Origin: Bacteroidales bacterium | GTDB taxonomy: Bacteria > Bacteroidota > Bacteroidia > Bacteroidales > UBA932 | DNA length: 50,301 nucleotides | Reading direction: 5' to 3' | Assembly: GCA_017412645.1 (NCBI GenBank) | Contig: JAFPWX010000006.1 | Location: forward strand, 1 to 50,301 | In this document: in pieces, positions 25,078 to 41,388 of the stretch | Layout: every line of letters begins with the position of its first letter | Numbering within the stretch: position 1 is the stretch's first letter | Notes under the pieces: model-generated | Databases searched by the model: none | What the model was told of the DNA's origin: nothing | What the model saw: the letters and a program-made list of their open reading frames with translations, nothing else | Program-made: the position numbers and the translations under genes

Positions 25078-25159
25078 CGCCTACGAAAACGGGCGAAAAC
25101 GTAGGCGACCCCCATGAAAAAGAGGTGGTCACTTACGAAAATGGCCAAAAACGTAGGCG
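25078..25159. repeat. Dyad-symmetric element, copy 1 (82 bp)
   Basis: Outer arms CGCCTACG and CGTAGGCG (8 bp), then 21-nt A-tract arms on both sides, then a central stem GACCCCC/GGTGGTC with loop ATGAAAAAGA. Each A-tract arm has the form AAAA-N2-GGC-N-AAAA. The same plan recurs at 25340-25423 and 25444-25525. Confidence 0.75.
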
Positions 25160-25339
25160 AGCCTATTGGCTAGGGGCAGGCGGTCGGCGGCGGCGAGGAG
25201 GGTCCCCCCAACAACCCCCCGCAGCTGCCGCCGGGTACCGCCAGCAGGCCGGCCGGCGTATTTGCCGGCCTGCGGTGCCCCCCTCTCCTGCGATGCCGCC
25301 CTCTCCTGCGGTGCCTTCCTACTGGCTTCCCTCGGTGGT
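25160..25339. other. GC-rich spacer with a hairpin and short tandem repeats
   Basis: It contains a 10-bp perfect stem GCAGGCCGGC/GCCGGCCTGC with a 10-nt loop (25244-25273) and two near-identical copies of CCCTCTCCTGCGATGCC (about 25281-25316). Open frames across it are low-complexity and unlike proteins, so I call no gene. Confidence 0.6.
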
Positions 25340-25423
25340 GCCCTTGCAAAAATGGCCGAAATCGTCAGACCCCCATCCAAAAATCGAGGGGGGTCTTGCG
25401 AAAAACGCCAAAAACGTCAGGGC
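25340..25423. repeat. Dyad-symmetric element, copy 2 (84 bp)
   Basis: Outer pairing GCCCT/AGGGC, 20-nt A-tract arms on both sides (AAAAATGGCCGAAA and GAAAAACGCCAAAAA), and a perfect central stem GACCCCC/GGGGGTC (25368-25395) with an A5-containing loop. Confidence 0.75.
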
Positions 25424-25443
25424 AACTGCCAAACAGAGAGGCC

Positions 25444-25525
25444 AACCGTCAAAAACCGCCAAAAATGAAGGTATCCCCCCGAAAAATCAGGGGGATACCG
25501 ACAAAAAAGCCTCAAAATGACGGTT
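25444..25525. repeat. Dyad-symmetric element, copy 3 (82 bp)
   Basis: Outer arms AACCGTCA and TGACGGTT, 18-nt A-tract arms on both sides, and a perfect 10-bp central stem GGTATCCCCC/GGGGGATACC (25470-25499) with loop CGAAAAATCA. The central hairpin could also help end transcription of the porin gene. Confidence 0.75.
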
Positions 25526-25638
25526 AGGTGCCAGCGGCCAGAGGTGGCGGAAGCGAAATCGGCCGAAAATGCGTCCGCACCTATGACCGCGGCGGCGCAA
25601 AGCCTAAGCCAGGCCGGGTCCCAACCCAAGCCAGGCCC

Positions 25639-39889: not shown

Positions 39890-41388
39890 AACGCTTTGCC
39901 GTCATAATGCTTCTCTGCATGGCCGTTCCCGCATTCGGCCAGCAATATCAGGTGCCTGAAATCACCGTCTCCAAGGACAAGGTCCGGGTAGACGGAAAGT
40001 CGTACTACGCCCACGTGGTCACGGCCAAGCAGACGCTCTACTCCATCGCCAAGGTGTACGGAGTGAGCCTTCAGGATATCTACGACGCCAACCGCAACCT
40101 CGACCTCGAGTCCAAGGGCCTGAAGGCCGGGCAGGTGCTGCTGATTCCGGTGGTAGCGGCAGTTCCGGCGGCAAAGATGGCCGAAAATGATTCCGCACCT
40201 GGCGGGGAGGGCATCGGAGGCACGCCTCTCGGAGGCGATGCCCTACCCGACCAGCCAGCACCCGAAGAGCAGGACGGCCGCTCGCTCTTCCCGAAACTTC
40301 GCGAACTCCTGGAAACTCTCGCCTCAACTCCCGGCGAGGACAGCACCTTCGTTGCCGACATCCCCGAAGTCATAAACGTCTCCATCCTCCTTCCCTTTGG
40401 GGCGGGAAGCATGGCCGACAGCAAGAGCGTGGATTTCTACAGCGGAGCGCTGCTGGCGGCAAGGGACCTTGGCAACAAGGGCATCAGGATGGAAATCAAC
40501 GCCTACGACATAGCCGGAGGAAAGCTCACTTATTCAATGGTGAACAATGCCGATGTGGTGCTCGGGCCGGTTTCCGAGGCCGACGTGATGGCTGCTGCCC
40601 GCATGGCGAACGTGGGGCGTTATGTCATCTCCCCGCTTGAACCCCGCACCGCCGGAATGGCCGACACGCTCCGCGTGATCCAGGCTCCCACTCCCGCTCG
40701 CGCACAGGCCGAAGATGCCGTCAGCTGGGCCATCTCCGACATGGCTCCCGGCGACTCGCTGGTACTCATCCGCGAGAAGGGCAAGACTCCAGGCGAAACA
40801 GCCCAGGCCCTCATCAAGGCGCTTAAGGAATCGGGACGGCGCTACGCTACCATCTCCTACGACCTTCTGGACGGCCTTCAGATACAGCCTGTGTTCGTGG
40901 ACAAATCCAGCCCGAACGGGACAACCCGCTATCTCATCGCCTCCGACGAGGAGTCGTTCGTGAACGACGCGGTGCGTAACATCAACCTGATGGCCTACAA
41001 GAAGCAGGCTGTGGCCCTTTACGGCCCGTCGCGCCTGCGCAGCTACGCCACCATCGAGACGGAGAACCTGCACAACGTTTGCAGCCACGTCTCCACTACA
41101 TACCAAACCGACTACATGTCGCCCTCCGTGCAGGCCTTCATCATGGCCTACAGGGCCCTCTACGGAGCCGAACCCAATCAGTTCGCCTTCCACGGCTACG
41201 ACTGTCTCACCTATTTCGTGACGATGTGCTCGCGCTACGGACGCAACTGGTTCCACCGCCTTCCCGCCGAGAGCGGCCGCGGGCTCCAGACCGACTTCTC
41301 CTTCGGCCTCGCTCCCCGCGCCGGACAGGTGAACCAGGCGGTTCGCCGCGTAGTCTACACTCCTGAATTCGAAACCGTTCTTCAGTAA
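39886..41388 (+). CDS. LysM protein with periplasmic-binding-like domain
   Basis: A 500-aa exported protein. After a signal peptide (to about residue 18, PAFGQ) comes a LysM domain (about 43-90: YYAHVVTAKQTLYSIAKVYGVSLQDIYDANR), which binds peptidoglycan, then an acidic linker, then from about residue 160 a domain like type I periplasmic binding proteins (ISILLPFG-like start, YDIAGGKLTYSMVNNADVVLGPV). There is no transporter nearby, so it is probably a cell-wall anchored structural or sensory protein. Translationally coupled to the glycosyltransferase gene. Confidence 0.85.
   Translation: MKRFAVIMLLCMAVPAFGQQYQVPEITVSKDKVRVDGKSYYAHVVTAKQTLYSIAKVYGVSLQDIYDANRNLDLESKGLKAGQVLLIPVVAAVPAAKMAENDSAPGGEGIGGTPLGGDALPDQPAPEEQDGRSLFPKLRELLETLASTPGEDSTFVADIPEVINVSILLPFGAGSMADSKSVDFYSGALLAARDLGNKGIRMEINAYDIAGGKLTYSMVNNADVVLGPVSEADVMAAARMANVGRYVISPLEPRTAGMADTLRVIQAPTPARAQAEDAVSWAISDMAPGDSLVLIREKGKTPGETAQALIKALKESGRRYATISYDLLDGLQIQPVFVDKSSPNGTTRYLIASDEESFVNDAVRNINLMAYKKQAVALYGPSRLRSYATIETENLHNVCSHVSTTYQTDYMSPSVQAFIMAYRALYGAEPNQFAFHGYDCLTYFVTMCSRYGRNWFHRLPAESGRGLQTDFSFGLAPRAGQVNQAVRRVVYTPEFETVLQ

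Follow-up and report, generated by a model that had tools for sequence, protein, structure and literature searches.

The palindromic elements E1-E4, located in the stretch of Bacteroidales DNA analyzed here (50,301 nucleotides; hereafter, the window), are probably copies of a REP-like family of a Bacteroidales genus that is part of a RAYT-type Y1 transposase system. In the genus, the genes of a RAYT clade have the same core at their flanks, again between palindromic stems, and the elements therefore look like the REPs of a Bacteroidales RAYT system. Our guess is that the host genus is Candidatus Cryptobacteroides; a scan with the RseP-like protein encoded in the window yielded 80 loci from rumen and gut MAGs, the closest two matching at 93% and 81%, with further matches at 62% in Candidatus Cryptobacteroides onthequi and 63% in a Rikenellaceae bacterium.

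Symmetric elements in the window and their dispersed relatives

Elements E1-E3 are located between convergent genes, and each can be drawn as one long hairpin that consists of an outer stem, two facing W4-NNGGCCN-W4 cores (W = A/T) 52 bp apart, and an inner stem (Table 1). The initial annotation of this DNA had reported three symmetric elements here, and they were recovered in the same place, and their stems, arms and A-rich loops agree with the description; its characterization of the arms as A-tracts holds in the sense that they are mostly A, but T-tracts occur in them as well. In some copies of the family, a T-tract faces an A-tract, and for this reason the idea that the A-tract arms have to be unpaired was dropped. 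E4 is a single unit, the core of which matches the core pattern with one mismatch; its sequence belongs to repeat family D1 and is absent from the matches of the covariance model described below. When the window was scanned against Rfam at gathering thresholds, two tRNAs were the only hits, with no match for the elements. Two further observations concern the window: an additional one-mismatch core match (CAAAGATGGCCGAAAATG) lies at 40172-40189, distant from E1-E4, and three 18-bp direct repeats, CCTGCGGTGCCCCCCTCT-like, occupy positions 25269-25322 between E1 and E2.

Table 1. Palindromic elements of the window, with their cores and stems
Feature	Position	Strand	Stems
E1, double unit	25078..25159	+	outer stem CGCCTACG/CGTAGGCG; central hairpin GACCCCC/GGTGGTC
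E1 cores	25084-25101, 25136-25153	+	
E2, double unit	25340..25423	+	outer stem GCCCT/AGGGC; central hairpin GACCCCC/GGGGGTC
E2 cores	about 25347-25364, 25399-25416	+	
E3, double unit	25444..25525	+	outer stem AACCGTCA/TGACGGTT; central hairpin GGTATCCCCC/GGGGGATACC
E3 cores	25450-25467, 25502-25519	+	
E4, single unit	25547..25578	+	palindrome GCGGA/TCCGC around core 25554-25571 (CGAAATCGGCCGAAAATG)

Six copies, namely E1-E3 and three others of the same genome (from two loci that a core pattern had picked out), were aligned as a seed. The alignment accommodates a 21-pair structure in which the outer and inner stems fall on a single antidiagonal and the A-rich arms are opposed. In this structure, which was read off the same six sequences it was scored on, 85.7% of the cells are paired, compared to a shuffle mean of 72.7%, and sliding the structure by 1-3 columns reduces the pairing to 36.1-50.4%. 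Changes on both sides of a pair are present in 11 of the 21 pairs as against 8.0 in shuffles (11 was reached in 14 of 500). Pairing and symmetry thus persist while the sequence differs, as the initial annotation had claimed, and the same trend was detected genome-wide in the 55 of the 64 copies (see below) that are at least 78 bases long. Pairing in the outer stems is 0.789 vs 0.574 in shuffled sequences (highest of 500 shuffles, 0.650), and in the inner stems, 0.741 vs 0.530 (highest of 500, 0.594). Each of the arms is itself an imperfect palindrome, so that local folding competes with the long hairpin; the local pairing within arms (0.614 and 0.652 vs 0.491 and 0.571 in shuffled sequences) shows a smaller excess than the stems of the long hairpin. 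In being folded and variable in their stems, the elements resemble bacterial integron attC sites, in which certain unpaired positions are conserved.

The covariance model built from the six copies, R1, which scores its own building sequences E1, E2 (match at 25341-25422) and E3 at 89.6, 79.9 and 90.8 bits, respectively, was run on the 1.8-Mb genome (26 contigs). It produced 87 rows at E<=1 and, with stricter filters, 62 rows at E<=0.01, both strands counted in each case; given the latter number, the elements are not a product of chance. In the stretches around the model rows, 86 rows at E<=0.01 were collapsed into 64 non-overlapping copies. A search of this kind had been put forward in the initial annotation as the way to find further copies, and it revealed 64 dispersed places with compensatory changes, so that copies do exist elsewhere in the genome. 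The dispersed copies have the layout core-hairpin-core and include the stem families AACCGTCA, CCCTTGCA, CGCCTACG, CGGAATCA, CTAGCACG, CTCGGTCA and others, all within a constant framework; the GGTATCCCCC hairpin accounts for 16 rows, that is, 8 places. Identical elements are found at two contig ends, C9:39-120 and C18:11-92 (loci L068 and L069), which suggests that the assembly breaks at these repeats.

The spacing of the two cores is nearly invariant across the 55 copies: 52 bp in 41, 53 bp in 11, 54 bp in 2, and 51 bp in 1. Fixed sequence windows placed over the tracts contain 104 A-tracts and 2 T-tracts in the in-gene copies (112 windows), and 91 A-tracts and 8 T-tracts in the copies outside genes (108 windows); these counts omit the 3 contig-edge copies and those shorter than 75 bases. 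Phased A/T tracts with a period of 52 bp, or about five helical turns, could curve or wrap DNA, and the elements might accordingly be sites for a nucleoid protein or gyrase that are kept for chromosome structure. The prevalence of the 52-bp spacing, the partial interchangeability of A and T tracts, and the 52-bp arrays found in other genomes are all in line with this explanation. However, bending alone requires neither covarying stems, nor in-frame placement in genes, nor the flanking of transposase genes, and we consider a purely architectural role distinctly unlikely; the period and the tracts are compatible with the nucleoid-protein or bending idea but do not need it.

In-frame copies in protein-coding genes

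Gene calls were made with our own codon-usage script, which missed both RAYT genes of this genome and may have missed or misplaced others; by these calls, genes contain 28 of the 64 copies, convergent gaps 23, and tandem gaps 10; divergent gaps contain none, and the remaining 3 copies are at contig edges. Because a RAYT gene was missed by the gene finder, one of the copies called tandem is really convergent. The intergenic plan laid out in the initial annotation thus applies to E1-E3, which do occupy a convergent gap, but as a purely intergenic picture of the family it is incomplete, given the 28 copies inside called genes.

This distribution bears on the possibility that the elements serve specifically to terminate transcription or to form mRNA 3'-end hairpins, bidirectionally between convergent genes. 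The location of the elements in the window fits, as does the minus strand of E3, which is terminator-like, with a hairpin followed by T-rich sequence; so does the preponderance of convergent over divergent gaps among the copies, compared to 34 convergent and 31 divergent among the 195 gaps of the fetched stretches, although this background is not independent because the stretches were chosen around the elements and partly overlap. The terminator explanation nevertheless appears very improbable to us. Among the 28 copies inside called genes, the A-strand is the sense strand in 26, and their transcripts therefore have no U-run after the stem; the A-strand is also the sense strand in 7 of the 10 gaps called tandem (6 of 9 once the really convergent one is removed), and the terminators predicted in the region are no more numerous than in shuffles (2 vs 1.9).

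The 28 in-gene copies are spread over 21 ORFs, and in 26 of them the A-strand coincides with the coding strand. A single frame, reckoned from the element's 3' end, is used in 23 copies (16 of length 82, 6 of length 83, and 1 of length 84). Judging by the sequence, each such copy adds about 28 amino acids and leaves the reading frame intact. The frames of the A-strand are hydrophilic, with mean GRAVY values of -1.24 to -1.34 as opposed to 0.02 to 0.40 for the T-strand frames, and 46 of 55 copies have no stop in the most-used frame. Among the 27 scored copies between genes (again, without contig-edge copies and those under 75 bases), the three A-strand frames are open in 19, 9 and 15 copies, and the T-strand frames in 12, 8 and 11; because frames other than the most-used one are often open in these copies, avoidance of stops alone cannot explain the strand and frame bias.

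The genes that carry elements encode known proteins. All 20 of the 21 element-bearing ORFs that were scanned against Pfam (L015 was omitted) match a family; they include AtpG, RsmE, ApbE, and an AroD-AroA fusion, with hydrophilic inserts. In AtpG, PDB homologues cover residues 1-54 and then, in pieces, about 101 to 372, and the element occupies residues 74-101. The AtpG ORFs of relatives (n=29, 25 of them from the genus) contain the element in none of the cases in the region printed; loop length varies here, the insert columns are filled by other long loops in two relatives, and genome G009 has an in-frame element of its own nearby. The same AtpG (L009:1282-2403) has a second long low-complexity stretch at about residues 135-213, which the PDB alignments shown do not cover. 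RsmE has two elements, at 83-111 and 232-259, and its homologue 3kw2 aligns with residues 2-49, 132-220, and 324-372. In the ApbE alignment, the second piece of which is weak (5.4 bits), the query jumps from 145 to 204 while the chain goes from 138 to 148, with the element at 169-196. The AroD-AroA fusion contains five elements, four of them in gaps between segments matched in relatives, and its ORF comprises 945 residues compared to mostly 655-798 in relatives.

Overall, 13 to 17 of the 28 in-gene copies are bounded on both sides by recognisable sequence; the range reflects cases with sub-cut-off Pfam matches or with a second stretch that was not displayed. For the homoserine dehydrogenase part, the stretch aligned with 1ebf (query 385-746, chain 3-353; the alignment itself was not displayed) spans the element at 434-461. 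For IspE, the PDB alignment ends before the element, and the evidence of in-gene location comes from Pfam; the in-gene placement in HydF, a Fer4 protein, and a C69 peptidase is uncertain, since the element falls among the first 37 residues and the start codon could have been set wrongly. As the frames stay open in usually essential genes, the proteins with inserts may well be functional.

A RAYT clade flanked by the same core

The Pfam family PF01797 (Y1_Tnp) has matches in 32 of 61 genomes of the genus and in three places in the genome studied here. By the flanks read, the Y1_Tnp genes of the genus are of at least two kinds, and in one clade, hairpin-core-hairpin elements or arrays adjoin the gene. 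This genome encodes two members of the clade. Next to the RAYT gene at C8:63047-63913, a hairpin-core-hairpin starts about 16 bases past the stop codon, and stems related to those of this element recur elsewhere in the genome within the same framework; 33 bases separate the second RAYT gene, C17:70397-71239, from the element match C17:70288-70363. The RAYT gene of L255 adjoins a tandem array with 52-bp steps. The RAYT flanks read are mostly hairpin-core-hairpin or arrays, unlike the core-hairpin-core of the dispersed copies. The other Y1 genes of L209, L212, L215, L222, and L225 (..HIYQR.. / ..HVCQQ.. type) have simple hairpins nearby, with no core in the flanks read; in L225, there is a loose core match upstream of the Y1 gene.

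A search of 200 genomes of the genus with three seed proteins of the clade produced matches at E<=1e-20 in 163, a count that probably includes other Y1 clades. For a test of the flanks, 30 RAYT loci were used, each the best match of one of 30 genomes among the 163. With the caveats that the three seeds are among the 30 loci and that the core patterns were written after several flanks had been seen, the strict core occurs within 350 bp of the gene (<=350 bp) in 17 of the 30 loci, compared to 2.3% of 3000 pieces of 700 bp taken at random from relatives' loci, and the loose core in 25 of 30, compared to 9.8% of 3000 such pieces; at 5 of the 30 loci, there is no core within 350 bp even by the loose pattern. 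Of 17 loci with other Y1 transposases in the genus, grouped as another clade from part of their proteins, 1 has the strict core and 4 the loose core. The 8 bases on each side of 37 flank cores from 21 loci pair at 5.97 of 8 positions vs 4.36 in shuffled sequences, that is, the cores beside the RAYT genes are also embedded in palindromic stems.

The proteins of the clade contain the HuH motif as NHVH (27 of 30), NHLH (2), or NHIH (1). The Y1_Tnp profile of Pfam matches all 3 seeds, among them the protein of this genome (27.8 bits, with a cut-off of 23). The NCBIfam profile REP_Tyr_transpos also matches all 3 seeds (best E 9e-11) and scores the protein of this genome at 27 bits, below the curated cut-off of 80. 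The Y...NP signature is matched by only 3 of the 30 proteins; the Y motif ends in NC in 23 of the 29 proteins scored, in NS in 3, and in NP in 3, and has the form Y..MN[C/S] in 25 of the 29, with one more protein containing YVQTNC. In 8 of the 29, a W precedes the Y motif by no more than 45 residues. A PDB sequence search with the transposase alignment produced no match at E<=0.01, and neither did a search of plasmid records with the transposase produce any.

Among the matches listed, no RAYT gene lies in the window or elsewhere on contig C1. At the loci examined, no RAYT gene was seen adjoining the main stem families AACCGTCA, CCCTTGCA, and CGCCTACG, and the GGTATCCCCC hairpin is absent from the 199 other genomes of the genus that were searched. 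Thus, the cognate enzyme of E1-E3 was not found. The link to a REP-type transposase that the initial annotation proposed to look for accordingly exists at the level of a clade flanked by the core-and-palindrome architecture, but no member with the window's own stems was found in these searches. It could be surmised from the same observations that E1-E4 are miniature elements and owe their movement to some other enzyme that has nothing to do with the RAYT clade, the shared core being due to convergence or to a common host-factor site. We find this unlikely: the core is found much more often next to the RAYT clade than in random pieces or with the 17 other Y1 genes, it lies between pairing stems there as well, and the copies with the stem type of the C8 RAYT share the framework of the family.

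The family among relatives and among known repeat systems

The covariance model has matches in 16 of 36 other genomes of the genus, whereas 24 genomes of other families have none. With at most one mismatch (<=1), the bare core CAAAANNGGCCNAAAATG is present in 42 of 61 genomes of the genus, including the one studied here, with 243 matches across the 61 genomes (65 of these in our genome) compared to 19 for the reversed control; exact matches, one per genome, were detected in 4 of the 294 genomes from elsewhere in the order. Species differ in their copies. Among the 80 loci around rseP in relatives, the model yielded 1 match, so the copies are not conserved at that place. In the orthologous region of the closest relative with sequence there (L081), the gene order changes after the tRNA-Pro terminator, and no empty site is seen; for the element on the rpsC side, the best-matching sequence stops short of the element, so that a clean empty site in non-coding DNA was not obtained. 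Two relatives (L086:8974 and L108:9024) have, just downstream of the orthologous tRNA-Pro, single palindromic W-tract/GGCC units that differ in their stems. In genome G081 of the same genus, the core palindrome and a second palindrome take turns along tandem arrays with 52-bp steps; in the arrays L181, L182, L183, and L185, the second palindrome is CCGTCAT..ATGACG, and some of these arrays adjoin further TTAAAGCAC hairpins.

As described in two publications on REP, BIME and REPIN repeats and their RAYT (TnpA-REP) transposases, the repeats are short dispersed palindromes, often double, in convergent or tandem gaps, with stems that vary while pairing is kept, and the RAYT genes are flanked by such units (PMC3733652, PMC6006769). 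By these descriptions, the elements analyzed here resemble REP, BIME, REPIN, and REPtrons: they are short, dispersed, often double, stem-variable palindromes, and transposase genes are flanked by the units. Unlike REPs, they mostly lack the GTAG tag and instead have the W4-GGCC-W4 core and the 52-bp period, and unlike the RAYTs of REP systems, the clade mostly has Y..MNC as the Y motif. On either strand and at any position, GTAG is found in 6 of 55 copies compared to 21.4 in shuffled letters, and GTGG in 7 of 55 compared to 26.0. Because tests for the GT[AG]G tag and for the Y---NP signature both came out negative, we do not file the family as canonical REPs.

A further parallel appears in PMC6006769, where TnpA-REP subclass 2.6 (Bertels RAYT group 5) is assigned to Bacteroidetes, with the Y motif YIH[QN]NP and the W motif WQ, and its genes have at their flanks 'atypical secondary structures' that lack GT[AG]G and recur elsewhere in the genome. 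The clade described here shares with that account the occurrence in Bacteroidetes, the flanking structures without GT[AG]G, and the copies elsewhere, but is set apart from subclass 2.6 by the published motifs, given Y..MN[C/S] in 25 of 29 proteins and a W before the Y motif in 8 of 29. By the published motifs alone, the clade could represent either a branch of 2.6 or a RAYT subclass not yet described.

Palindromic repeats in genes have a precedent, too: according to PMC3733652, Rickettsia palindromic elements (RPE) and other intragenic REPs lie in frame in genes of known proteins, with dimers or groups that encode 20-30 residues, and the CGTC repeats, which include RPE-4 and RPE-6, had no linked transposase in that 2013 survey. 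The in-gene copies analyzed here are similar to the RPE so described, being palindromic repeats in frame within genes of known proteins, but differ in phylum and sequence and in the existence of a linked transposase clade in the genus. The tetranucleotide CGTC, as distinct from the stem-loop-tail format of the CGTC repeats, occurs on either strand of 42 of 55 copies vs 25.9 in shuffled letters. A literature search by title and start of the abstract, with most subscription journals outside its scope, retrieved no other description of the family among the papers listed.

Taken as a REP-like system, the family would have as its module the core C-R-W4-NNGGCCN-W4-Y-G between palindromic stems, repeated at 52 bp, with stems that differ by lineage and keep their pairing. 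The RAYT would recognise a folded single strand, hairpins and core together, for example during replication, cut it, and rejoin it elsewhere in trans. Many copies would survive in convergent or tandem gaps; in genes, survival would be expected of copies with the A-rich strand as sense strand, as these yield a stop-poor, hydrophilic insert of about 28 residues, harmful insertions presumably having been removed by selection. We infer that the elements are mobile. The reading as a REP-like or mobile repeat, one of several offered in the initial annotation, gains from the further copies with compensatory changes and from the flanks of the RAYT clade; a transposase with the window's stems was not found.

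REPs, RAYTs, and intragenic REPs are already described in PMC3733652 and PMC6006769; the family analyzed here is distinguished from the known ones by its core, by the 52-bp period, by the heavy invasion of genes, and by a transposase clade in which most members lack Y---NP. Tentatively, and with somewhat less than even confidence, we picture a genus-wide REP-RAYT system in which the elements carry a built-in stop-poor, hydrophilic frame and persist as disordered inserts in essential genes, the RAYT subclass reads the W4-GGCC-W4 core rather than GTAG, and the whole is a transposase-linked counterpart of RPE. The entry and survival of palindromic repeats in protein genes have so far been hard to test. 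A single genus of gut bacteria here combines numerous stem lineages and in-gene copies with a linked transposase clade, so that the origin, targeting, and tolerance of such repeats become testable, and protein annotation in genomes of this kind can include element-derived segments.
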